This document shows positions 4,217 through 20,194 of a DNA stretch of 34,128 bases, piece by piece; position 1 is the first letter of the stretch; each line of letters begins with the position of its first letter. The stretch comes from Terriglobia bacterium. GTDB lineage: Bacteria; Acidobacteriota; Terriglobia; Acidiferrales; UBA7541. The notes under the pieces are model-generated. The model was not told the DNA's origin, did not search any database, and saw only the letters and a list, made by a program, of their open reading frames with translations. The stretch spans positions 1 through 34,128 of the forward strand of contig JAIQEV010000048.1 of NCBI GenBank assembly GCA_020073585.1. Reading direction: 5' to 3'. The position numbers and the translations under genes were made by a program.

Positions 4217-5812
4217 TCAGCTCTTGCCCAGGTGCACCAGCTTCGCTTCGGTCACCGCGGGCAGCTTGCGGATCGGCTCCACGGCGGATTCCGGCACGTC
4301 GCCGTCCAGCCGCACCAGCGACACCGCTTCCGCTCCGCGCGTCGCATCCCGCCGCCCCAGCGCGAACGTGGCGATATTCACTCCCTGCTGCCCCAGCAGC
4401 GTGCCCACCTGCCCGATGACGCCGGGCTGGTCGTGGTTGCGCAGGTAGAGAATCGTCCCCGCCAGCTGCGATTCCAGCGGAATTCCGTCAATCGCCAGCA
4501 CCCGCGGCGAAGCGTCGTGCAACACCGTGCCCTCCACGCTCAACCCCGGCTGCTTGCTCCCCGGCTCCGGCAGCGACGCCACTTCCAGCGTGTTCGGAAA
4601 GCCGTGCTCGCGCCGCCGCGTCTCTTCCTCGACGGTCAGCCCGCGCGCCGCGGCCACCGCCGCCGCGTTCACCAGGTTCACTTTCTCGTCCAGCACCGCG
4701 TTCAGAATCCCCGTCAGCACCGCGCTCTTCAGCAGGTGCGTCCCCGCCTCCGCCAGCTCCCCGGAGTAGCGGATGCGGATGCGCGCCGGACGCACCGCGG
4801 CCGCCTGCGACACCAGCGAACCCAGCCGCTCCGCCAGCTCCAGATACGGCAGCACACGCCGGTACTGTTCCGCCGAGAGCGCCGGCAGATTCACCGCATT
4901 GCGGATGATCCCGTCGGCCAGGTAGTCGCGCACCTGCTGCGCGATCTGCGTGCCCACCTCCTCCTGCGCTTCCGTCGTCGATCCCGCCACGTGCGGCGTG
5001 GCGATCACATTCGGCAGCGCGATCAGCGGCGAATTCTTCGGCGGCTCTTCCACGAAGACGTCCAGCGCCGCCCCCGCCAGCCGCCCGCTCTTCAGCGCCT
5101 CGGCCAGCGCGCCTTCGTCCACCAGCTCGCCGCGCGCCGCGTTCACCAGCCGCGCGCCCTTCTTCATCTGCGCGATGCTCTGCGCGTTGATCAGGTTCTG
5201 CGTCGCCGGACTCAGCGCCGTGTGCAGCGACACGAAGTCGCTCTCCGCCAGCAGCTTCTCCAGCGGCACCAGCTCCACCTGCGCCTCGCGCGCCGCCGCT
5301 TCGCTGATGTACGGGTCATACGCCAGCACGCGCATCTCGAACGCCCGCGCCCGCCGCGCCACTTCCCCGCCGATGCGCCCCAGCCCGATCAGCCCCAGCG
5401 TCTTGCCGCGCACCTCGGTGCCCGCCGCCGAAGACTTCTCCCAGCGCCCCGCGTGGATGGCCGCATCGTGCCGCGGCACCTGCCGCGCCAGCGCCAGCAG
5501 CAACGCAAAGGTGTGCTCCGCCACGCTGATGGCGTTGCCTCCCGGCGTGCTCATCACCAGCACGCCGCGGCGCGTCGCCGCTTCCAGGTCGATGTTGTCC
5601 ACGCCCACCCCGGCGCGCCCCACCACGCGCAGCCGCGGCGCCTTTTCCAGCAATTCCGCCGTCACCTTGGTCGCGCTGCGCACCACCAGCGCGTCGGCGT
5701 CCGCGATCTCCGCGTGCAGCGTCTCCTTCGTGGTCAGGACAATCTGGCAAAAACGATACTCCGCCGGAATTTGTCCCGGGCACAGGGAGTCTGTGCGCCA
5801 TCCGTCCGCCAC
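4217..5812 (-). CDS. serA: D-3-phosphoglycerate dehydrogenase, long form
   Basis: It oxidises 3-phosphoglycerate to 3-phosphohydroxypyruvate with NAD, the first step of serine synthesis. The 531-residue length fits the long SerA class. Visible parts are the Rossmann motif GLGRIG at about 143-148, the catalytic Arg in NAARGE (about 227), Glu in DVFVEEP (about 255) and His in TPHVAGS (274). An intervening domain and a C-terminal ACT domain follow (HDQPGVIGQVGTLLGQQGVNI), which in relatives senses serine. The start shown is a GTG. The first 30 or so residues do not look like the usual SerA beginning, which has a beta strand such as KVLIAD, so the N-terminus is uncertain. It is transcribed divergently from yqeY, and a decayed copy of its 3' end lies downstream. 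Confidence 0.93.
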   Translation of the reverse strand: MADGWRTDSLCPGQIPAEYRFCQIVLTTKETLHAEIADADALVVRSATKVTAELLEKAPRLRVVGRAGVGVDNIDLEAATRRGVLVMSTPGGNAISVAEHTFALLLALARQVPRHDAAIHAGRWEKSSAAGTEVRGKTLGLIGLGRIGGEVARRARAFEMRVLAYDPYISEAAAREAQVELVPLEKLLAESDFVSLHTALSPATQNLINAQSIAQMKKGARLVNAARGELVDEGALAEALKSGRLAGAALDVFVEEPPKNSPLIALPNVIATPHVAGSTTEAQEEVGTQIAQQVRDYLADGIIRNAVNLPALSAEQYRRVLPYLELAERLGSLVSQAAAVRPARIRIRYSGELAEAGTHLLKSAVLTGILNAVLDEKVNLVNAAAVAAARGLTVEEETRRREHGFPNTLEVASLPEPGSKQPGLSVEGTVLHDASPRVLAIDGIPLESQLAGTILYLRNHDQPGVIGQVGTLLGQQGVNIATFALGRRDATRGAEAVSLVRLDGDVPESAVEPIRKLPAVTEAKLVHLGKS

Positions 5813-5886: not shown

Positions 5887-6348
5887 ATGAGTCTTGCCGA
5901 AAAACTCCAGAAGGACCTGACCGACGCCATGCGCGCCAAGGACGAACTGCGCCTTAGCGTCCTGCGCATGATCAAATCCGCCCTGAAATACAAAGAGACC
6001 GAGAAGATCCGCCCGCTCGAAGAAGGCGAAATCCTGCAGGTGCTGCAGACCCTCGTCAAGCAGCGCAAGGAGTCCATCGAGCAGTTTACCAAGGGCGGCC
6101 GCCAGGATCTGGCGGACAAGGAACTCAAAGAGCTGGCCATCGTCGAGTCTTACTTGCCCGCCGGCGCCACCGCCGCCGAAATGGACGCCGCCGTCTCCAA
6201 AGCCATCGCCGAAACGGCCGCCAGCTCCATCAAGCAGATGGGCGCGGTGGTCAAGGCCGCCAAGGCGCATCTCGAAGGCAAGACCGTGGACGGCAAGGCC
6301 CTCAGCGACCTCGTCCGCGAACGCCTGTCCAAGCTGACGACCCCATGA
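5887..6348 (+). CDS. yqeY: GatB/YqeY domain protein
   Basis: A small helical protein of 153 residues, the normal length for stand-alone YqeY proteins. These share the tail domain of the GatB subunit of tRNA-dependent amidotransferase. The sequence is typical from the start (MSLAEKLQKDLTDAMRAKDE, then RLSVLRMIKSALKY). The central region KQRKESIEQFTKGGRQDLAD, followed by an LPAG turn and KQMGAVVKAAKAHLEGK, matches the family. A GAGGAG box stands 6 bases before the ATG. The proposed link to tRNA metabolism comes from the shared domain; the exact role is not known. It is divergent from serA. Confidence 0.93.
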   Translation: MSLAEKLQKDLTDAMRAKDELRLSVLRMIKSALKYKETEKIRPLEEGEILQVLQTLVKQRKESIEQFTKGGRQDLADKELKELAIVESYLPAGATAAEMDAAVSKAIAETAASSIKQMGAVVKAAKAHLEGKTVDGKALSDLVRERLSKLTTP

Positions 6349-11452: not shown

Positions 11453-13609
11453 GTGAGCAAACGTCCCTGGAGTTCCACGGCCCCGCCGCAAGAATTCCAC
11501 TCCTACGTGCCGGCGGAAGAGAGTCCCGCCGAGTTTTCTCTCCGCGCCGTGCTTCTCGGCGCGCTCTTCGGCCTGCTCTTCGGCGCCGTCACCGTCTACG
11601 TCGGCCTGCGCGCCGGCCTCACCGTTTCCGCTTCCATCCCCATCGCCGTGCTCTCCATCAGCATCCTGCGCGCCTTCGGCCGCTCCACCATTCTCGAAAA
11701 CAACATCGTGCAGACCACCGGCTCGGCCGGCGAATCCGTCGCCGCCGGCGTCATCTTCACTCTCCCCGCGCTCATCTTCCTCGGCTTCGGCTCCGAGTTC
11801 ACCTACTGGCGCATCTTCCCCCTCGCTCTCCTCGGCGGCTGGCTCGGCGTTCTCTTCATGATCCCCCTGCGCCGCCAGCTCATCGTCAAGGAGCACGGCA
11901 ACCTCACCTATCCCGAAGGCACCGCCTGCGCCGACGTCCTCGTCGCCGGCGAACGCGGCGGCTCCTTCGCCGGGCGCGTCTTCTGGGGCCTCGGCCTCGG
12001 CGGCGTCTACACCTTCCTCATGAACACCGTGCAGGCCTGGACCGGCCAGCCCGAATACCGCCCCAGTTGGCTCCCCGGCGCTTCCTTCCGCGCCGCCGTC
12101 ACCTCCGAGTATCTCGGCGTGGGCTACATCATCGGCCCGAAAGTTTCCGGCATTCTCTTTGCCGGCGGCATCTTTTCCTGGCTGCTCTTCATGCCCGCCA
12201 TCCGCTTCTTCGGCCAGCTCGCCCCCAACACCGCGCTTTATCCCAGCACCGTGCCCATCCCGCTGATGTCCCCCGACCAGCTCTGGTCCAGTTACGTCCG
12301 CCCCATGGGCGCCGGCGCGGTAGCCGCCGCCGGCCTTTTCACTCTGCTGCGTACTCTCCCCACCATCCTCTCCGCCCTGCGCTCCGGCCTGAAAGACGTC
12401 CGCGCCGAAAACGCCGGGCAATCCGCCGCCGCCAACCGCATTGACCGCGACATGTCCATGCGCACGGTGATCTTCGGTTCCGCCATCATCATCGTCATGA
12501 TGTGGCTGCTGCTCACCTTCCGCCCCATTCCCGGCGCGCAGACCACCCTCGTCTCCAATCTCTTTGCCGCCGTCTTCGTCGTCGTCTTCGGTTTTCTCTT
12601 CGTCACCGTGGCCTCGCGCATCAGCGGCCTGCTCGGCAACTCCTCCAATCCCATCAGCGGCATGACCATCGCCACCCTCATGGCCACCTGCGCCGTCTTC
12701 CTCGTCTCCGGCTGGACCGCCCCGAACTACGCCGTTCTCGCCCTGACCATCGGCGGCGTCGTGTGCATCGCCGCGGCCATTGCCGGCGCCACCTCGCAGG
12801 ACCTCAAGACCGGCTACCTCGTCGGCGCCACTCCCTACTGGCAGCAGGTTGGCCTGCTCGTCGGCGTCACCGTTTCCACCATCGCCGTCGGCGGCACCCT
12901 CGCGCTCATGAACAAGGGCCTGGAAAAATACGTTCCCAGCCAGATCCCCCTGAACGTCCAGTCCCTCCCCTCCGGCGTCAAAGTCGAAAAGCCCGTCTAC
13001 ACCTACAAGGGCCAGACCTACACGCTCATCAACGCTCTCGGCTCCCGCGAAATTCCCGACGGCGAATATCTCTACGACGCCAACACCAAGCAGATCGAAA
13101 TCCAGTGGGTGCAGGGCATCGGCAGCGACCAAGCCGCCGCGCCGCAAGCCCGCCTCATGGCCACGGTCATCAGCGGCATCCTCAACCAGCGCCTGCCCTG
13201 GCGCCTCGTGCTCATGGGCGTGGCCCTGGTCGTCGCCGTCGAGCTCCTCGGCGTGCGCTCCCTGGCCTTTGCCGTCGGCTCCTATCTCTCCATCGCCACC
13301 ACCATGGCCATCTTCGCCGGCGGTGTCGTCCACTGGCTCGTCGAGCGCGCCTCCAAGGACGGCGAGAGTGCCGGCGAAGCCAGTCCCGGCGCGCTTTACT
13401 CCAGCGGCCTCATCGCCGCCGGCGGCGTTTTCGGCCTGCTGGCCGTGGCCCTGCGCGTCCTGCAGGACGCCGGCGTCCGCTGGCCCGCGGCCTTCGGCTT
13501 CGGCCCCAAACTCCTCGGCCCTCTCGCGCAGAGCAACGCCTTCGGCGTCCTCATGTTCGCCCTGCTCTCCGCCTCCCTCTTCTACTTCGCCCGCAAAAAA
13601 CTGAGCTGA
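11453..13609 (+). CDS. OPT family oligopeptide transporter
   Basis: An inner-membrane transporter of 718 residues from a GTG at 11453, chosen because GGAGG stands 6 bases ahead. The protein is almost wholly hydrophobic with about 14-16 membrane segments. The family signature TTGSAGESVAAG is at 88-99. Residues about 490-570 form a hydrophilic loop (KYVPSQIPLNVQSLPSGVKV onward). Prokaryotic OPT members carry di- to oligopeptides or metal chelates with protons; the substrate here is not known. A hairpin terminator follows. The peptidases elsewhere in the window would fit peptide uptake, but that is inference. Confidence 0.92.
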   Translation: MSKRPWSSTAPPQEFHSYVPAEESPAEFSLRAVLLGALFGLLFGAVTVYVGLRAGLTVSASIPIAVLSISILRAFGRSTILENNIVQTTGSAGESVAAGVIFTLPALIFLGFGSEFTYWRIFPLALLGGWLGVLFMIPLRRQLIVKEHGNLTYPEGTACADVLVAGERGGSFAGRVFWGLGLGGVYTFLMNTVQAWTGQPEYRPSWLPGASFRAAVTSEYLGVGYIIGPKVSGILFAGGIFSWLLFMPAIRFFGQLAPNTALYPSTVPIPLMSPDQLWSSYVRPMGAGAVAAAGLFTLLRTLPTILSALRSGLKDVRAENAGQSAAANRIDRDMSMRTVIFGSAIIIVMMWLLLTFRPIPGAQTTLVSNLFAAVFVVVFGFLFVTVASRISGLLGNSSNPISGMTIATLMATCAVFLVSGWTAPNYAVLALTIGGVVCIAAAIAGATSQDLKTGYLVGATPYWQQVGLLVGVTVSTIAVGGTLALMNKGLEKYVPSQIPLNVQSLPSGVKVEKPVYTYKGQTYTLINALGSREIPDGEYLYDANTKQIEIQWVQGIGSDQAAAPQARLMATVISGILNQRLPWRLVLMGVALVVAVELLGVRSLAFAVGSYLSIATTMAIFAGGVVHWLVERASKDGESAGEASPGALYSSGLIAAGGVFGLLAVALRVLQDAGVRWPAAFGFGPKLLGPLAQSNAFGVLMFALLSASLFYFARKKLS

Positions 13610-13641
13610 GCAAGAAACTCCATCCACCACCCGCCTATGTA

Positions 13642-13677
13642 GATGCCGGGCTTTAGCCCGGCATCTTGTTTTCTTTG
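13642..13677 (+). terminator. Intrinsic terminator after the OPT gene
   Basis: GATGCCGGGC, loop TTTA, GCCCGGCATC, then TTGTTTTCTTT. The perfect 10-base stem and T-rich tail lie 32 bases after the OPT stop codon. Confidence 0.85.
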
Positions 13678-13776
13678 CCCGCCCGCAATCGCCCGCTGTC
13701 CTTGTCCTCGCCCTCTTTCCACACCCTCCTAACACTCTTTGACGCCCGCGCGCCGCCGCCGTACACTTAATCTGTC

Positions 13777-14562
13777 ATGGGCTCGCGCTCCGCCATCCGC
13801 AACTACCGCATCAGCTTCAATTTCTACATCACCCCCGGCGTCCAGCTCCTGCTCATCGCCAATTTCGCCGTCTTTTTCTTCGAACTCCTGCTCAAGCACT
13901 TCTGGGGCCTGGCCGCCTACGACTGGCTGTTGAAGTGGTTCGGCCTGGTGCCCGCCGGCGTCGTGCCCCTCCTGCGCATCTGGCAGCCGGTCACCTATCT
14001 CTTCCTCCATGACGCGGGCACCATCTGGCACATCGGCATGAACATGTTCATGCTCTGGATGTTCGGCCGCGAGCTCGAACTGGTCTGGGGCAAGAAGCGT
14101 TTCCTGCAATATTATTTCCTCACCGGCGTCGGCGCGGGAGTCATCAACGTCATCGTCAAGACCCTCCCGGCCTTCTTCGGCCACGGCTTCTCGTTCGCAC
14201 CCACCATCGGCGCTTCCGGAGCCATCTTCGGAATTCTCATCGCCATGGCCATTCTCTTCCCCGACCGCCAGGTCATCTTCTTCCCCCTGCCGGTCAGCAT
14301 CCGTATGCGCACGGCCATGATCGTCATGGCCGCCTTCACCTTTCTCGGCACCTTCGGCTTCGGCGCCGACAAGGTCAGCCACCTCTGCCATCTCGGCGGC
14401 ATGCTCGTCGGCTGGCTCTACCTGCGCCGCGGCTCCTTCCTCTACCGCGTGCGCAACGGCTTCGCCGACTGGAAGGTCCAGCGCAACCGCAAAAAATTCG
14501 AAGTCTACATGAGCGCCAAAAAGAACGAGCCCCCCTCCCGCCCCGACCGCTGGGTCAATTAA
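13777..14562 (+). CDS. Rhomboid family intramembrane serine protease
   Basis: A membrane protease of 261 residues that cuts transmembrane helices of other proteins within the bilayer. The dyad is visible: Ser147 in the GASGAIFG motif and His205 in HLCHLGGMLVG. The loop and helix motif IWHIGMNMFMLWMFG (about 84-98) is also typical. I count about six membrane segments. A basic, hydrophilic tail (about 220-261) would face the cytoplasm. It starts with ATG at 13777. It is co-directional with the OPT gene but separated by a terminator. The substrate is unknown. Confidence 0.93.
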   Translation: MGSRSAIRNYRISFNFYITPGVQLLLIANFAVFFFELLLKHFWGLAAYDWLLKWFGLVPAGVVPLLRIWQPVTYLFLHDAGTIWHIGMNMFMLWMFGRELELVWGKKRFLQYYFLTGVGAGVINVIVKTLPAFFGHGFSFAPTIGASGAIFGILIAMAILFPDRQVIFFPLPVSIRMRTAMIVMAAFTFLGTFGFGADKVSHLCHLGGMLVGWLYLRRGSFLYRVRNGFADWKVQRNRKKFEVYMSAKKNEPPSRPDRWVN

Positions 14563-14860
14563 CCCGCCTTTCTCCCAAGAAACTTGTTATAAGAGTGGAG
14601 CTTGCCACATGAAACTCGCTGTAGGGGCGGGGCTTGCTCGCCCCGCACTTCAGTCGGGACCTCTCACAGATAAGACTGAGGCAACAAAGAGACCCCATTC
14701 ATGCTTCGCATGTAGGAGGGAACGGGCCTCTTTCTGGCCAAAAACTAGATTTTTGGTATGCATATTGTGCAACTGAACCGGTAGCCATAAACTGTGGTAG
14801 GCGAAGACTTCGCACATCGTGATATTCTCCTTCCCAAACGGAGATGAGGATTAACACTTA
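14563..14860. other. Gap at the left edge of the AT-richer island
   Basis: There is no gene here. A GC hairpin GCGGGGC-TTGCTC-GCCCCGC lies at 14627-14646 within the phrase CTGTAGGGGCGGGGCTTG. That phrase recurs inverted near 33170-33194 as a dispersed repeat. From about 14660 the base composition falls and stays low through the restriction-modification genes. No clear promoter, integrase site or terminal repeats were found. Confidence 0.55.
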
Positions 14861-15748
14861 ATGTCTAAACAGCCGATGGCAGAGGTTTTTGGCTTCCCGA
14901 CAGACAACAACTCTCAAACAGCGGCACGTAACAGAGAGAAGAGACTCTGCCCCTTTAACAACAAAGTTCCAAACTGCACCAAAGACAAAGCACAAGACCC
15001 GCTAGGCGTCTGCTCCGTCTTTGAAGGGGAAAACAGAGAAAATATCGCTATCACTTGCCCTGTTCGGTTTCGTGAGAACTGGCTAATCGCAGAAGACGCG
15101 GCGGAGTTTTTCTTCCCCCCGAAGACCAAATGGACTTCGTTGCTAGAAGTCAGACTCCATGACAAGCACGGAATCTCAGCCGGAAACATTGACGTTGTGC
15201 TAGTTGCGTACAATGAGAAAGGCAAGGTCATAGACTTTGGCACATGCGAAGTTCAGGCCGTCTACATCTCAGGCAATGTCCGTGATCCGTTTGAGCACTA
15301 TATGAAAAATCCCGCGAAGAAGGCGAAGATGGATTGGTCAGGGCAGCCGAACTACCCCCGGCCTGATTATCTGTCATCATCACGGAAGAGGCTGGCCCCA
15401 CAACTACTCTTCAAAGGCGGCATCCTGAAAGGCTGGGGTAAGAAGCAGGCTGTTGCGATTCATCGCGGGTTTTATAATACGCTGCCCAAAATGGCCGAAG
15501 TTAGTAAAGCACAGGCTGACTTAGCATGGATGATTTATGACCTGAAACGAAACAACAAGTTTAATACTTACAGTCTTGTGCGCAGCCAGACGGTCTACAC
15601 ACAGTTTCAGCCGGCACTTCTGAAGCTGACCACCGCTGACGCTGGCCCGGTGGACAAATTCATTGGTCAATTGCAGGCCAAGTTGAATCAGAAATTACAA
15701 AATGCGCCAGATGCACCCGCTTTGACGGATATTGTGATAACTGAGTAG
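14861..15748 (+). CDS. NotI-family type II restriction endonuclease
   Basis: A protein of 295 residues. Cysteines 30, 39, 51 and 66, within CPFNNKVPNCTKDK, DPLGVCSVF and ITCPVRF, match the metal-binding four-Cys region I know from NotI. A likely PD-(D/E)XK core follows: Asp111 (GNIDVVLV), then Glu130-Val-Gln132 (TCEVQAVY), with Gln where Lys is common. It would cut DNA at a rare site unless the site is methylated. The gene is followed after 14 bases by an adenine methyltransferase gene in the same direction, the expected pairing. GC is lower than in the flanking genes (about 45% in a 60-base sample), which suggests horizontal gain. The family call rests on my recall of NotI motifs, and the recognition site is unknown. 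Confidence 0.8.
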   Translation: MSKQPMAEVFGFPTDNNSQTAARNREKRLCPFNNKVPNCTKDKAQDPLGVCSVFEGENRENIAITCPVRFRENWLIAEDAAEFFFPPKTKWTSLLEVRLHDKHGISAGNIDVVLVAYNEKGKVIDFGTCEVQAVYISGNVRDPFEHYMKNPAKKAKMDWSGQPNYPRPDYLSSSRKRLAPQLLFKGGILKGWGKKQAVAIHRGFYNTLPKMAEVSKAQADLAWMIYDLKRNNKFNTYSLVRSQTVYTQFQPALLKLTTADAGPVDKFIGQLQAKLNQKLQNAPDAPALTDIVITE

Positions 15749-15762
15749 GAGAGCGAATTCCG

Positions 15763-16659
15763 GTGTATCAACAGACTCTTTTCGAGGATGACTGCCTTTC
15801 TAAAGTCATCAATGTTGCTTCGATTCCACTGAGAAGCCCTTTCAGGTATCCGGGGGGTAAGACTTGGCTTGTACCACAGGTTCGCAGATGGCTTTGGAAT
15901 AAGAAGAAAAAACCCACGGAACTGATAGAACCTTTTACAGGTGGTGGAATCATCGCACTGACGGTGGCGGCAGAGAATCTCGCCAAGCATGTGACGATGG
16001 TTGAGCTTGATGATGAGATTGCCGCTGTATGGCAAACAATTCTTGGTAAAGAAGCGAAGTGGCTGGTTGACAGCATTCTGACCTACAAACTTTCGCGTGA
16101 CGTGTTGTACGAAGACCTTCAAAAGAAACCGAAATCAAGACGGGAAATGGCATTTCAGACGATTCTGAAAAATAGAACGTTCCACGGCGGTATCTTAGCT
16201 CCAGGTTCTGGCTTCCTGAAAAATGGTGAGAACGGCAGAGGCATCTTATCACGTTGGTATCCACAGACTCTGGCAAAGCGCATTCTGAATATAGAAGCGA
16301 TTCGTGACCGCATCTCTTTCATCCAAGGTGATGGCATTGGCGTGATTAGCAAAGCCTCTGCACGGCCTGGCGTAGCCTTCTTCATTGACCCGCCTTACAC
16401 AGCTAGTGGCAAGAAGGCCGGCAGGCGGTTGTACACACACTTTGAGCTTGACCATGAAAGACTATTTCAAGTTGTGAGCAAGGTTTCTGGTGACTTCTTG
16501 ATGACTTACGATGATGCGGAAGGTGTGCGGGAACTTGCGAGATCTCACAGCTTTGACACAGAACTTGTCAGCATGAAAAACACTCATCATGCCGAAATGC
16601 GCGAACTTCTTATCGGACCTAACCTTAGCTGGGCCAGAGGGCGGGTGGCGCAGAGTTAG
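15763..16659 (+). CDS. D12-class N6-adenine DNA methyltransferase
   Basis: It transfers a methyl group from S-adenosylmethionine to adenine N6 and presumably protects the host from the adjacent nuclease. It has 298 residues and starts with GTG at 15763 after an AGGAGA box. Motifs appear in the alpha-class (Dam-like) order: FRYPGGK at 27-33 and EPFTGGG at 56-62 for cofactor binding, then DPPY at 209-212 for catalysis. The target recognition region lies between them. It shares the low GC of the nuclease gene and is probably cotranscribed with it. The DPPY order and motifs point to adenine, not cytosine, which matters because the NotI site contains no A. Confidence 0.92.
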   Translation: MYQQTLFEDDCLSKVINVASIPLRSPFRYPGGKTWLVPQVRRWLWNKKKKPTELIEPFTGGGIIALTVAAENLAKHVTMVELDDEIAAVWQTILGKEAKWLVDSILTYKLSRDVLYEDLQKKPKSRREMAFQTILKNRTFHGGILAPGSGFLKNGENGRGILSRWYPQTLAKRILNIEAIRDRISFIQGDGIGVISKASARPGVAFFIDPPYTASGKKAGRRLYTHFELDHERLFQVVSKVSGDFLMTYDDAEGVRELARSHSFDTELVSMKNTHHAEMRELLIGPNLSWARGRVAQS

Positions 16660-16779
16660 TGACTCGGCACGGTCGGGGTGCCCCTCGATAAGAGCGCAGC
16701 ATGAGTGGGGTTCTTCTCCTCGCTGTTCCCCCATCCCCGGGTCCGCTTTGCCGCACCATTCGAATACCACTAAACGATA

Positions 16780-16808
16780 TTGAACATGTTTACCGGATCA
16801 GCTATACT
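16780..16808 (+). promoter_or_regulatory. Promoter-like -35/-10 pair with no gene behind it
   Basis: TTGAAC (16780-16785), a 17-base spacer and TATACT (16803-16808) are close to the sigma-70 consensus with ideal spacing. Transcription would run into a gap without genes, antisense to the 3' flank of pyk. It could make a small RNA or be a relic. Confidence 0.5.
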
Positions 16809-17150
16809 CTCATCGTTCTTTGGCGCGGAGGAGATGGAGTTGCCCCTTGTCCTCCTCACCGCGCTGCCCGCAACACCCCATCCCCGGTAACCACTTTTCA
16901 AACCTCAGCGCCCCAACGCCTCTCCTGCAACCCCTGCAGAATCAACACTTACACACTCTTTTGTATCAACGGAAATCTACAGGACTTAAAATCCTTTCCT
17001 TTGATACTCTTGCGCACTCTTCAAACCAGAGCGTCACACTAACCCCTTCAAATTCATATACAACCGCACTCTTTGCGAAAAACACGGGGGGTGGGGGTAG
17101 GGAGACAGCCAGAATCCTAAACCAACACTTGAAGTTTGCCCCCCTCCGGA

Positions 17151-17200
17151 CTCTGCGCGCCTCTGCGTACTCAGCGCCTCAGCGTTATCTTTTTCCCTCT
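17151..17200. repeat. Dispersed repeat (CTCTGCGT...GCGTTATCTTT type)
   Basis: CTCTGCGCGCCTCTGCGTAC continues to CAGCGTTATCTTTTTCCCTC. The reverse complement of the same phrase occurs twice at 32952-33000 and 33062-33110, where it reads GAAGAGAAAGATAACGCAGA and continues with ACGCAGAG-like steps. Confidence 0.65.
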
Positions 17201-17248
17201 TCCGGCTTCGGGCTCACCCGCGGCGCGGACGCACCCCAGCGCGGCCGC

Positions 17249-18673
17249 CTACGCCCCGCCGCTAATGATATGGAACTTCATGAAGTTCGTCGTGCCCCGC
17301 ACGCCCATGGGCATGCCCGCCACGATGCCCACCACGTCGCCCTTGCGCGCCAGGTGTTCCTCCAGCAGCCGTTTGTCCGTCAGCGCCGCCAGCCCGTCGA
17401 TCTTGCGCGGGTCCGCAATGTTCCGCGGCAGCACCCCCCAGATCAGCGCCAGCCGCCGCCGCGTCTCGCGTTCCGGCGAAAACGCGATGATCGGCGTCTG
17501 CGGCCGGTAGCGCGACACCAGCCGCGCCGTGAACCCGCTGTGCGTGAACACCGCGATCACCTTCATGTGCAGCTCGCGCGAGGCATGGCACACCAGCTCC
17601 GCCACGGTCTCCGCCACCTTCAGCTTCTCGGTCGGCTCCGGCCGCGGAAACTCGTGTACGCTGGCCTCCGCCTCCTCGATGATCCGCGCCATCATGGCCA
17701 CGGACTCCACCGGGTACTTCCCCGAAGCCGTTTCCGCGGACAGCATCACCGCGTCCGAGCCGTCGAAAATCGCGTTGGCCACGTCCGAGGCTTCCGCGCG
17801 CGTGGGCCGCGGGTTCTGCGTCATGGACTCCAGCATCTGCGTCGCCGTGATCACCGGCCGCCGGAAAACCCGCGCCCGCGAAATGATCTCCTTCTGCACC
17901 ACCGGCACGCGCTCCGGCTTCATCTCCACGCCCAGGTCTCCGCGCGCCACCATCACCCCGTCGGCCACGCGCAGGATCGCGTCCAGGTTCTCGATGGCTT
18001 CCGGCTTTTCCAGCTTGGCGATCACCGGGGTGTCCTTGCCGGCCCGGCGGATCAGCGCCTTGGCCTGCAGCACGTCCTCGGGCCGCCGCACGAAACTCAC
18101 CGCCACGTAATTCACCCCGTGCGCCAGCGCGAACGCCAGGTCCGCCCGGTCTTTCGCCGTCAGCGCCGGTACGCGCAGCTTTACTCCCGGCAGGTTGATC
18201 CCCTTGTTCTGCCCCAGCTCCCCGCCGTTCACCACTTCGCAGATCACTTCCCGCCCGCGCACCTGCCGCACGCGCAGCTCGATCAAGCCGTCCGCCAGCA
18301 GGATGCGGTCGCCCTTATGCACTTCCCGCGGCAGCGCCGTAAACGTCGTGCTCACCCGCGTGGCATCGCCCAGCACCCGCGCCGCGGTAATCGTAAAGCG
18401 CTGCCCCGTGCGCAGTTGCACCGGCGCGCCGCCCGCCAGCAGCCCCGTGCGGATCTTCGGTCCCTGCAAATCGGCGACCACCGCGATCGGCTTTTGCAGC
18501 TTCCCGGAGGTCTCCCGCAGCAGCGTGATGCTGCGCGCGTGTTCGGCGTGCGTGCCGTGCGAAAAATTGAGCCGTGCCACGTCCATGCCCGCGCGCATCA
18601 GCTTCTCGATGAGGCGCGGCGAGCGGCTGGCCGGTCCGATGGTGCATACGATTTTCGTGCGTCGAAAGAGCAT
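17249..18673 (-). CDS. pyk: Pyruvate kinase
   Basis: It converts phosphoenolpyruvate and ADP to pyruvate and ATP, the last step of glycolysis, in the cytoplasm. It has 474 residues, the normal length. Visible are the N-terminal RTKIVCTIGPASRSP and MDVARLNFSHG, the substrate-binding region KLEKPEAIENLDAI with the catalytic Lys, GDLGVEM, and NAIFDGSDAVMLSAETASGKYP. The C-terminal regulatory domain includes FTHSGFTARLVSRYRP. The ATG at 18673 follows GGGAGA. It starts 51 bases after the M20 peptidase gene and is probably cotranscribed with it. Confidence 0.97.
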   Translation of the reverse strand: MLFRRTKIVCTIGPASRSPRLIEKLMRAGMDVARLNFSHGTHAEHARSITLLRETSGKLQKPIAVVADLQGPKIRTGLLAGGAPVQLRTGQRFTITAARVLGDATRVSTTFTALPREVHKGDRILLADGLIELRVRQVRGREVICEVVNGGELGQNKGINLPGVKLRVPALTAKDRADLAFALAHGVNYVAVSFVRRPEDVLQAKALIRRAGKDTPVIAKLEKPEAIENLDAILRVADGVMVARGDLGVEMKPERVPVVQKEIISRARVFRRPVITATQMLESMTQNPRPTRAEASDVANAIFDGSDAVMLSAETASGKYPVESVAMMARIIEEAEASVHEFPRPEPTEKLKVAETVAELVCHASRELHMKVIAVFTHSGFTARLVSRYRPQTPIIAFSPERETRRRLALIWGVLPRNIADPRKIDGLAALTDKRLLEEHLARKGDVVGIVAGMPMGVRGTTNFMKFHIISGGA

Positions 18674-18724
18674 ATTCTCCCGTGGTTTGGCGGGACCGGC
18701 GTTCCTCGCCCGTCCCCGGTCTGG

Positions 18725-20194
18725 TTACTTCGCCGCCGCGAATCCCGCGACGATGCGGTACAGAAATTGCACGCCCTGCGCAAACGACGCCAGCGGCATC
18801 CGCTCATCCTCGCCGTGCATGCGCTTCAGGTCCTCCTCCGTCAGCGGAAACGGCACCAGCCCGTAGGCCTGCACGTTGTGCAGCCGCAACTGCGAGGAAT
18901 CCGTGGCCCACGTGGACAGGCACGGCACCACCGGGACCCCCGCAAACTGCTCCGCGCCCGTCTTCTCGATCGTCTGGTACAGCTCGCTCTCCAGCGACGA
19001 CGGCGGCGCGGCATACCCGGCGTCCGGCTGCACCTCGAATTTCACCTGCGGATCGTTTACCAGCTTCGCCAGCTCCCCCACCAGCACGTCCACCGTGTCT
19101 CCCGGCAGCAGCCGGATGTTCAGCATGGCTCGGGCCTCCGCCGGAATCACGTTCACGCGCACGCCCCCCGCGAGCATCGTCGGCGCAATCGAATCCCGCA
19201 GCATCGAATTCCACAGCGGGTTGGCCTCGGAAACCACGCGCTGCGCATGCTCCGCCCGGTCCGGCGTATCCAGCGCGCGCATCCACTTGGCCAGCTCCGG
19301 ATCTTCGATCCGCGCCAGCTCCTCGAAGTACCGCCGCACGATGGCCGTGGGCCGCGCCGGCGCCGAATACGCCCCGATCTTGGCGATGGCCGTGGCCAGG
19401 TGCACCACGGCGTTGTCCTTCGTCGGAATCGAGGCGTGCCCCGAAGCTCCGCGCGCCACCACCGCCACGTTCACCGCCACCTTCTCGCTCGCCTGCACCG
19501 CCACGTACTGCACCTTGCCGCCCTTCACGGTGACGTTTCCGCCCTCGTTCAGCGCGAATCCCGCCGCGAACTTGTCCCAATACTTGGCGATCAGCGTCTT
19601 GATGCTGGCGTCCCCGCCCTGCTCTTCGTCGCAGGTCGCCAGGAAGATCACGTCGCGGTTCAGCCGCGCGTTGCCCCGCTTCAGCGCAATGAACGCCGCC
19701 AGGTTCGCCGCCAGCATCCCCTTGTCGTCCACCGAGCCGCGCCCGTAGAGATAGCCGTCCTTCTCCACGGCCCCGAACGGGTCCACCGTCCACTTCGCGC
19801 GGTCCACCCCCACCACGTCCATGTGCGCCACCAGCAGCAGCGCCCGCGTGGGATCGGCCACCGCCGCGCTGCGCAGCCGCGCCACCACCGCCGTCCGCCC
19901 CGGTCCCGCCTCCAGCAGCTCCGGCTTGATGCCCTCTTTCTCCAGAATTCCGGCGATGTACTTCGCCGCCGCCTGTTCGTTTCCCGGCGGGTTCGTGGTG
20001 TTCATGCGGATCAGATCCGCCAGCCACTTTTCCGCTTCTTTCGCCAGCGCGGAGGTATCCGCGGTCCCTGCGGCTATCACCGGCGCAGGGGTCTGTGGAA
20101 GCTTGGCAACCGCCTGCGCGCCTGCCCGCGGCGCCGCACCCGCTATCAGAAACCCGGCCAACAACGCCACACCGATTCGCCTGCGTTTGTGCAT
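18725..20194 (-). CDS. M20-family metallopeptidase, exported
   Basis: A zinc-dependent exopeptidase or amidohydrolase of 489 residues with a signal peptide (about 1-27, GVALLAGFLIAGAAPRAGAQ). Metal ligands and catalytic residues are visible: His124 and Asp126 in LLVAHMDVVG, Asp156 in GRGSVDDKGM, Glu190-Glu191 in CDEEQGGD, and a C-terminal MHGEDERM. The dimerisation domain sits between, with RGASGHASIPT. Relatives trim peptides or carnosine-like dipeptides. Export suggests digestion in the periplasm. GGAG lies 8 bases before the ATG. It is first in a likely two-gene unit with pyk and divergent from the VWA gene. Confidence 0.92.
   Translation of the reverse strand: MHKRRRIGVALLAGFLIAGAAPRAGAQAVAKLPQTPAPVIAAGTADTSALAKEAEKWLADLIRMNTTNPPGNEQAAAKYIAGILEKEGIKPELLEAGPGRTAVVARLRSAAVADPTRALLLVAHMDVVGVDRAKWTVDPFGAVEKDGYLYGRGSVDDKGMLAANLAAFIALKRGNARLNRDVIFLATCDEEQGGDASIKTLIAKYWDKFAAGFALNEGGNVTVKGGKVQYVAVQASEKVAVNVAVVARGASGHASIPTKDNAVVHLATAIAKIGAYSAPARPTAIVRRYFEELARIEDPELAKWMRALDTPDRAEHAQRVVSEANPLWNSMLRDSIAPTMLAGGVRVNVIPAEARAMLNIRLLPGDTVDVLVGELAKLVNDPQVKFEVQPDAGYAAPPSSLESELYQTIEKTGAEQFAGVPVVPCLSTWATDSSQLRLHNVQAYGLVPFPLTEEDLKRMHGEDERMPLASFAQGVQFLYRIVAGFAAAK

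Follow-up and report, generated by a model that had tools for sequence, protein, structure and literature searches.

Among the known systems closest to the gene pair analyzed here are NotI on the nuclease side and M.CbeI on the methyltransferase side. NotI is reported to have a glutamine in place of the usual catalytic lysine and to hold iron in a four-cysteine (Cys4) motif (accessible text of PMC4081073). The class of NotI's own methyltransferase was not found in the sources we searched. In the available part of PMC3425538, M.CbeI is described as annotated as a D12 class N6-adenine methyltransferase and as having the motif DPPY, yet it makes N4-methylcytosine (m4C) in GGCC and serves CbeI, an isoschizomer of HaeIII. 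According to the same account, DmtB of Anabaena, which is 57% identical to M.CbeI, places m4C on the inner cytosine of GGCC. A loose parallel is M.DraR1, an m4C enzyme that its authors assign to the alpha class but that has SPPY and a GIY-YIG partner (excerpts of PMC6712171 and PMC10855626). Our search of the open-licence literature found no account of the NotI-branch family or of the pair; a Bacillus anthracis restriction paper mentions M.EagI once, and the available text of Hiraoka 2019 mentions NotI 0 times (PMC6329791). Public plasmid records already label members of the pair "NotI family restriction endonuclease" and "DNA adenine methylase."

The locus and its NotI-family nuclease

We analyzed a stretch of 34,128 nucleotides from a Terriglobia bacterium (assembly GCA_020073585.1, contig JAIQEV010000048.1), which we refer to as the window. 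The features relevant here are as follows.

14861..15748, + strand: NotI-family restriction endonuclease, 295 aa, ATG start (Pfam PF12183, invariant residues, AlphaFold model)
15763..16659, + strand: D12-class (alpha-class, Dam-fold) amino-methyltransferase, 298 aa, GTG start (Pfam PF02086, model, motifs)
15749..15762, + strand: intergenic gap of 14 bases (ORF coordinates)
14560..17000, no strand: lower-G+C stretch (composition profile of 12000-20000; limits approximate)
4797..4804, no strand: GCGGCCGC (NotI) site, with others at 6095, 7489, 17241, and 30862

Both reading frames of the pair are intact, and the ORF calls agree with the coordinates, frames, and 14-base gap given in an earlier annotation made from the letters alone (here, the sequence-only reading). 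The G+C content is 0.48 to 0.54 across positions 14560 to 17000 compared to 0.62 to 0.69 in the flanks (500-base steps). Because this low-G+C stretch lies between G+C-richer flanks, the two genes were probably acquired by their host. Overall, the pair is best read as an ordinary, intact-looking Type II restriction-modification system of a widespread, uncharacterised NotI branch.

A scan of a genome collection returned 491 stretches encoding a relative of the nuclease, of which we kept the best 80, so the set favors close relatives. By their record titles, these best 80 of 491 come from Acidobacteria, Cyanobacteria (Oscillatoria), Chloroflexi, planctomycetes, Nitrospirae, Verrucomicrobia, Thermus-Deinococcus kin, proteobacteria, and others. 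The nuclease alignment comprises 77 sequences (the window plus 76 of the 80 loci; four were omitted for length).

The window nuclease matches the Pfam NotI family, PF12183, at 203.4 bits (E 4.4e-60, cutoff 22), and Cys 30, 39, 51, and 66 together with D111, E130, and Q132 are invariant in all 77 aligned sequences. An AlphaFold model built with this alignment (pLDDT 92) matches NotI (3c25) with a Z score of 19.8 over model residues 3 to 286 (277 aligned, rmsd 4.0, 12% identity). NotI with and without DNA gave the sole strong structural matches (Z 19.8 over 277 residues and 18.4 over 276), the next other solved entry reached a Z score of only 8.6, and Foldseek matched the model to NotI at E 3.9e-11. 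Searching the Protein Data Bank by sequence, with the window nuclease and two profiles, missed NotI, which was found by fold comparison; identity to NotI is 12 to 15%. The Pfam score, the fold including the metal-binding part, and the Cys4 and D...E-x-Q site all place the protein in the NotI family, as the sequence-only reading had proposed from the four cysteines, D111, and E130-V-Q132. The active site is PD-(D/E)XK-like, and the model and alignment predict that D111, E130, and Q132 carry out catalysis on a NotI fold. In the relatives G475, G461, G486, G437, and G438, the frame of the NotI-type nuclease has an internal stop codon, a sign of pair turnover.

Methyltransferase partners across the nuclease family

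Three of the best 80 loci lack a D12 gene but end <300 bases past the nuclease and were excluded from the pairing count. D12 sequence follows the nuclease in 76 of the remaining 77, on the same strand in 74 loci and convergent in 2, although one of the 76 (L046) retains only a C-terminal remnant of the methyltransferase. The two genes lie within -17 to 22 bases of each other in 61 of 72 measured loci, with spacing counted from the earliest start codon in each frame and overlaps therefore rough. Nuclease and methyltransferase distance matrices are correlated across 66 loci, the window's included (r 0.62; 2000 permutations reached at most 0.13), and shared host descent may add to this correlation. 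NotI-type nucleases of this branch are thus paired with D12 methyltransferases beyond chance, the two genes lying side by side and being kept together as in a Type II system. Two loci have unusual neighbors: at L046:5831-6760, an RE_HaeII-like gene (30.9 bits) lies between the NotI-type nuclease and the D12 remnant, and at L094:5880-7895, the sole unpaired locus of the 77, a 671-aa N6_N4-type methyltransferase with DPPY stands in place of D12.

We also tallied partner classes over 69 loci from phylum and relative searches, a set that overlaps the first in some genomes and holds two pieces from each of two genomes; the score bins were set after the scores had been seen. At 90 Pfam bits or more, 42 of 48 loci have a D12 partner and 6 have no recognised methyltransferase, several of the methyltransferase-less loci in the tally being short. 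Below 40 bits, the 19 loci comprise 12 with an SPPY-type methyltransferase, 6 with a C5 methyltransferase, 1 with none, and 0 with D12, as classified by SPPY and C5 models that drew in part on this low-scoring group itself. One of the two loci between 40 and 90 bits has a D12 partner, and the other has none. The class of the partner tracks the branch of the nuclease. In a tree of 44 selected nucleases, partners change four times, where the minimum possible is two and 0 of 200 shuffles were as low; the SPPY-partnered rows form one side of a branch (support 100/99). C5 partners occur twice in the otherwise D12 half of this tree, in Paraburkholderia pBN5 and in Sedimenticola, whose row is long and less surely placed.

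The nuclease of pBN5 is 85% identical over 315 residues to that of Aeromonas and 82% identical over 339 residues to that of pEST4011. Both of these nucleases are D12-paired. The pBN5 gene instead adjoins a C5-cytosine methyltransferase (220 bits) and a Vsr gene (85.5 bits), and a D12 profile search of the whole 39.5 kb plasmid gave no match. The pBN5 C5 enzyme is 48 to 70% identical to eight C5 methyltransferases beside other NotI-family nucleases. A stretch invariant in all nine, SDHTKRYGR, lies between motifs that we take to flank the C5 recognition region. Because a nuclease 82 to 85% identical to D12-paired ones has a C5 methyltransferase, cytosine is very probably part of the site in at least one D12-paired branch, and the simplest reading is that methylation of this cytosine would block cutting. 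If this is a natural partner swap, either methyltransferase should be able to block that nuclease.

For the window, this argument is weakened because the window nuclease is only about 29% identical to that of the pEST4011 branch. The D12 enzymes of the window and pEST4011 are 50% identical overall, 53% over residues 22 to 290, and 63% in the loop 130-175, a loop in which the window enzyme is 17 to 26% identical to M.CbeI, two cyanobacterial GGCC-type rows, and the Dam rows. Given this likeness between the methyltransferases, the cytosine-site argument would extend from the pBN5 branch to the window.

Class and relatives of the methyltransferase

The window methyltransferase matches Pfam PF02086 (MethyltransfD12) at 47.5 bits and carries FRYPGGK at residues 27 to 33, DPPY at 209 to 212, and TYDD at 248 to 251. 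We aligned it with 67 of the 80 loci, selected by the motif RYPGGK. All 68 sequences match PF02086, and DPPY is invariant among them; RYPGGK is invariant as well, but it was the selection criterion, and L037 has RYAGGK. A structural model (pLDDT 86) matches 7m6b "Mcbe1" with a Z score of 25.0 and Escherichia coli Dam with 22.7. The Pfam match, DPPY, and the Dam fold all make the enzyme a D12, alpha-class amino-methyltransferase, which upholds the class that the sequence-only reading had assigned from FRYPGGK and DPPY.

Within this class, the closest solved chain is 7m6b (phmmer 43.2 bits, compared to 17.2 for DpnM; profile search 51.1 bits, compared to 16.6 for DpnM and 15.2 for Dam). The 7m6b chain shares 53 to 55% identity with a pair of D12 enzymes from cyanobacteria, of which one is HaeIII-linked, and from this identity and its name we take it to be M.CbeI. 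An apparent contradiction of the M.CbeI kind recurs on a Nostoc plasmid, where a HaeIII-family nuclease (GGCC) is directly followed by a D12 "adenine methylase." The window enzyme falls outside the Dam subgroup (N6-adenine, GATC), scoring 34.9 bits against TIGR00571 (cutoff 114.85) and having RYPGGK and TYDD where the compared Dam rows have KWAGGK and the (I/L)(S/T)N type. It also falls outside the M.CbeI/DmtB group as defined by high identity and a common recognition loop (23% identity overall, 18% in the loop). In a tree of 25 D12 proteins, 13 NotI-linked proteins group together with one Bdellovibrio protein; a starred branch parts two Dam rows from all others, with long branches flagged. 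The NotI-linked group is on the same broad side as M.CbeI only, with other uncharacterised D12 groups between them, and is not its sister. A PADLOC model on which a HaeIII-linked D12 methyltransferase scores 406 bits yields 86 bits for the window enzyme, and two models that score Dam at 353 and 504 bits yield 37.5 and 21.8 bits for the window enzyme.

Two D12 genes among the relatives differ from this pattern. At L003:2327-3259 (genome G038), the D12 partner is convergent with a nuclease whose frame is open and has DPSY for DPPY; judged by this motif, it may be inactive. At L295:2983-3867, on the Bdellovibrio plasmid pBdHM1, a D12 enzyme 47% identical to that of the window lies beside a PHP-domain protein, and the annotation shows no NotI gene up to 3 kb away; the enzyme is perhaps a solitary copy.

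Recognition site and methylated base

The five GCGGCCGC sites in the window are all where the sequence-only reading had placed them, but their number is uninformative, since shuffled sequences contained 6.8 +/- 2.6 and 83 of 100 shuffles reached 5. We rejected a new specificity deduced from these sites because the count is at chance level. Observed/expected ratios for 4- and 6-base palindromes, 8-base and interrupted palindromes, and G+C-only 8-mers revealed no clear recognition site in up to about 2.5 Mb of pair-carrying genomes (1.56 Mb from seven deeply sampled genomes, one of which, G438, has a stop codon in the nuclease, and 0.94 Mb more, with 20 kb counted twice). None of 24 listed 6-mers fell to <0.3 of expectation in every one of the seven deep genomes. 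CTCGAG stayed <0.7 in all seven (0.13 to 0.66), but the control pool gave 0.73, and palindromes were mildly depleted in general. The largest differences between pooled carriers and controls were for AGCT (0.82 vs 0.98, z -6.2), CGGCCG (0.46 vs 0.70, z -4.7), GTCGAC (0.41 vs 0.71, z -4.6), and CTCGAG (0.44 vs 0.68, z -3.7), the controls being 0.50 Mb unmatched by phylum and the contrasts not used as evidence. In a matched contrast of G049 with its genus, CAGCTG (z -2.8) and CGGCCG (z -2.2) were depleted. Single samples showed stronger losses, with GAGCTC at 0 of 34 expected and CAGCTG at 0.03 in G408, and GTCGAC at 0 of 26 and CGGCCG at 0 of 21 in G398; these depletions, which differ between genomes, are likely marks of other restriction systems.

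A cytosine methyltransferase for the NotI site elsewhere in the genome was one of the findings that the sequence-only reading had named as telling against it, and a PF00145 (C5 methyltransferase) search of the window's genome (assembly 96.7% complete) gave 0 matches, the same search being positive in 10 of 14 control genomes. SPPY-type methyltransferases are encoded on contigs C109 and C60 of this genome, and another enzyme may protect the nuclease site in the host. The C60 gene (L130:6030-8213) is directly followed by a 293-aa ORF without a Pfam match, and the two may form a further restriction pair in this host.

As a motif typically found in N6-adenine enzymes, DPPY counts against N4-cytosine marking by the window methyltransferase. 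From the D12 class and DPPY, the sequence-only reading had argued that the enzyme methylates adenine and could not protect a NotI site, and it had taken a nuclease with a new, adenine-containing site as the simplest reading. The motifs are not proof of adenine methylation, given that M.CbeI breaks the rule and that 7m6b is the closest solved relative, and the step to a new site loses its support with the M.CbeI exception and the cytosine swap in pBN5. A new specificity is possible with only 12 to 15% identity to NotI, but an adenine-containing site need not follow because a D12 partner may mark cytosine. We therefore lean toward a Type II pair with a cytosine-containing, probably G+C-rich site and a methyltransferase that would make N4-methylcytosine more probably than N6-methyladenine. 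By analogy with M.CbeI and by comparison of relatives, N4-cytosine marking is somewhat likelier for the window enzyme than N6-adenine marking. The nuclease, with its NotI fold, Cys4 site, and D111/E130/Q132, would cut unmodified DNA at a short site, and the alpha-class methyltransferase would methylate the same site in host DNA; the site would contain cytosine and would probably be G+C-rich like that of NotI, and the product would be N4-methylcytosine, as for M.CbeI. N4-cytosine marking is weakened because the window enzyme is 23% identical to the M.CbeI chain and is not its tree sister, and we also counted against it the best PADLOC models for the enzyme (PD-Lambda-5_B, 135.7 bits; PDLC03358, 91.7 bits), the lack of clear site avoidance in the carriers, and the adenine in AGCT, GTCGAC, and CTCGAG, which are among the lowest pooled motifs. 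A broader proposal, which we regard as falling a little short of probable, is that the NotI-linked D12 enzymes are a new clade of alpha-class N4-cytosine methyltransferases marking a NotI-family site, so that three unrelated methyltransferase types (C5, alpha D12, and SPPY-type) would serve one nuclease family, with a recent swap between pBN5 and the pEST4011 and Aeromonas plasmids.

The main alternative, which we consider doubtful, is that the D12 enzyme makes N6-methyladenine and that the nuclease site is new and contains adenine (plus cytosine if the pBN5 swap holds). It is consistent with DPPY in 68 of 68 methyltransferases, with the adenine-specific designation of the family by Pfam and TIGR00571 (the latter score below cutoff), with a nuclease distant enough from NotI for its specificity to have changed, and with a loop 130-175 unlike that of GGCC-type D12 enzymes; AGCT was also the lowest 4-base palindrome, in the pooled unmatched contrast and not in every genome. 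Against it stand the motif exceptions M.CbeI and DmtB (as described in the available part of PMC3425538), a nearest solved relative of the M.CbeI type rather than Dam, and the C5 enzyme of pBN5 beside a nuclease so similar to D12-paired ones. A special case of the preferred reading, unlikely in our estimation, makes the nuclease a true NotI isoschizomer that cuts GCGGCCGC, with D12 protecting by N4-methylcytosine. The NotI fold over nearly the whole model would fit, as would the membership of the C5 partners of several branches in one methyltransferase family, the outcome to be expected of a conserved family site. On five plasmids or parts with NotI-family genes, GCGGCCGC occurred 15 times compared to 26.8 expected, a weak, uncorrected deficit from too few counts. 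However, GCGGCCGC is not depleted in pooled carriers (31 seen, 31.9 expected), it is the lowest G+C-only 8-mer in two control pools just as in the carriers G420 and pBN5, and identity to NotI is 12%. That the genes are not a restriction pair at all, with a decayed nuclease or a solitary regulatory methyltransferase adjoining by chance, is very improbable: stop codons in some relatives' nucleases and the Bdellovibrio plasmid D12 gene would fit such a history, but the window frames are intact, the catalytic residues are invariant in 77 sequences, 76 of 77 loci are paired, and divergence is correlated.

Should the D12 partner act on cytosine, the label "DNA adenine methylase" would misname the clade, possibly some hundreds of genes (491 nuclease relatives were found, the best 80 of which were examined), and methylome predictions made from the label would be directed at another base than the one modified. 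Should the partner act on adenine, the branch would represent a new specificity on a NotI scaffold.

Compared with known systems, the methyltransferase has its best PADLOC match in the component B model of PD-lambda-5 (135.7 bits), but the nuclease matches none of the PD-lambda-5 models at E 0.1 or better; we rejected membership in this system, as far as it is described in the accessible part of PMC9519451, because only the methyltransferase half matches. M.CbeI and DmtB, both alpha-class N4-cytosine enzymes, share with the window enzyme the D12 class, RYPGGK, DPPY, the TYD motif, the "adenine" annotation, and a nuclease partner. They differ in sequence (23% identity to M.CbeI, 18% in the loop 130-175), and because this recognition loop differs, the site of the window enzyme is probably not simply GGCC. 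NotI (PDB 3c25 and 3bvq; PF12183) shares with the window nuclease the fold over nearly the whole chain, the Cys4 site, and glutamine for lysine; it differs in length (354 residues in the solved chain compared to 295 aa) and is 12 to 15% identical, and the two sites are not known to be the same. The pairs of Thermus brockianus pTbrSNM4-1c, pEST4011, and Aeromonas pKAM497_4 have both families and the gene order of the window, with nucleases 59% identical to that of the window in pTbrSNM4-1c and about 29% identical in pEST4011 and pKAM497_4.
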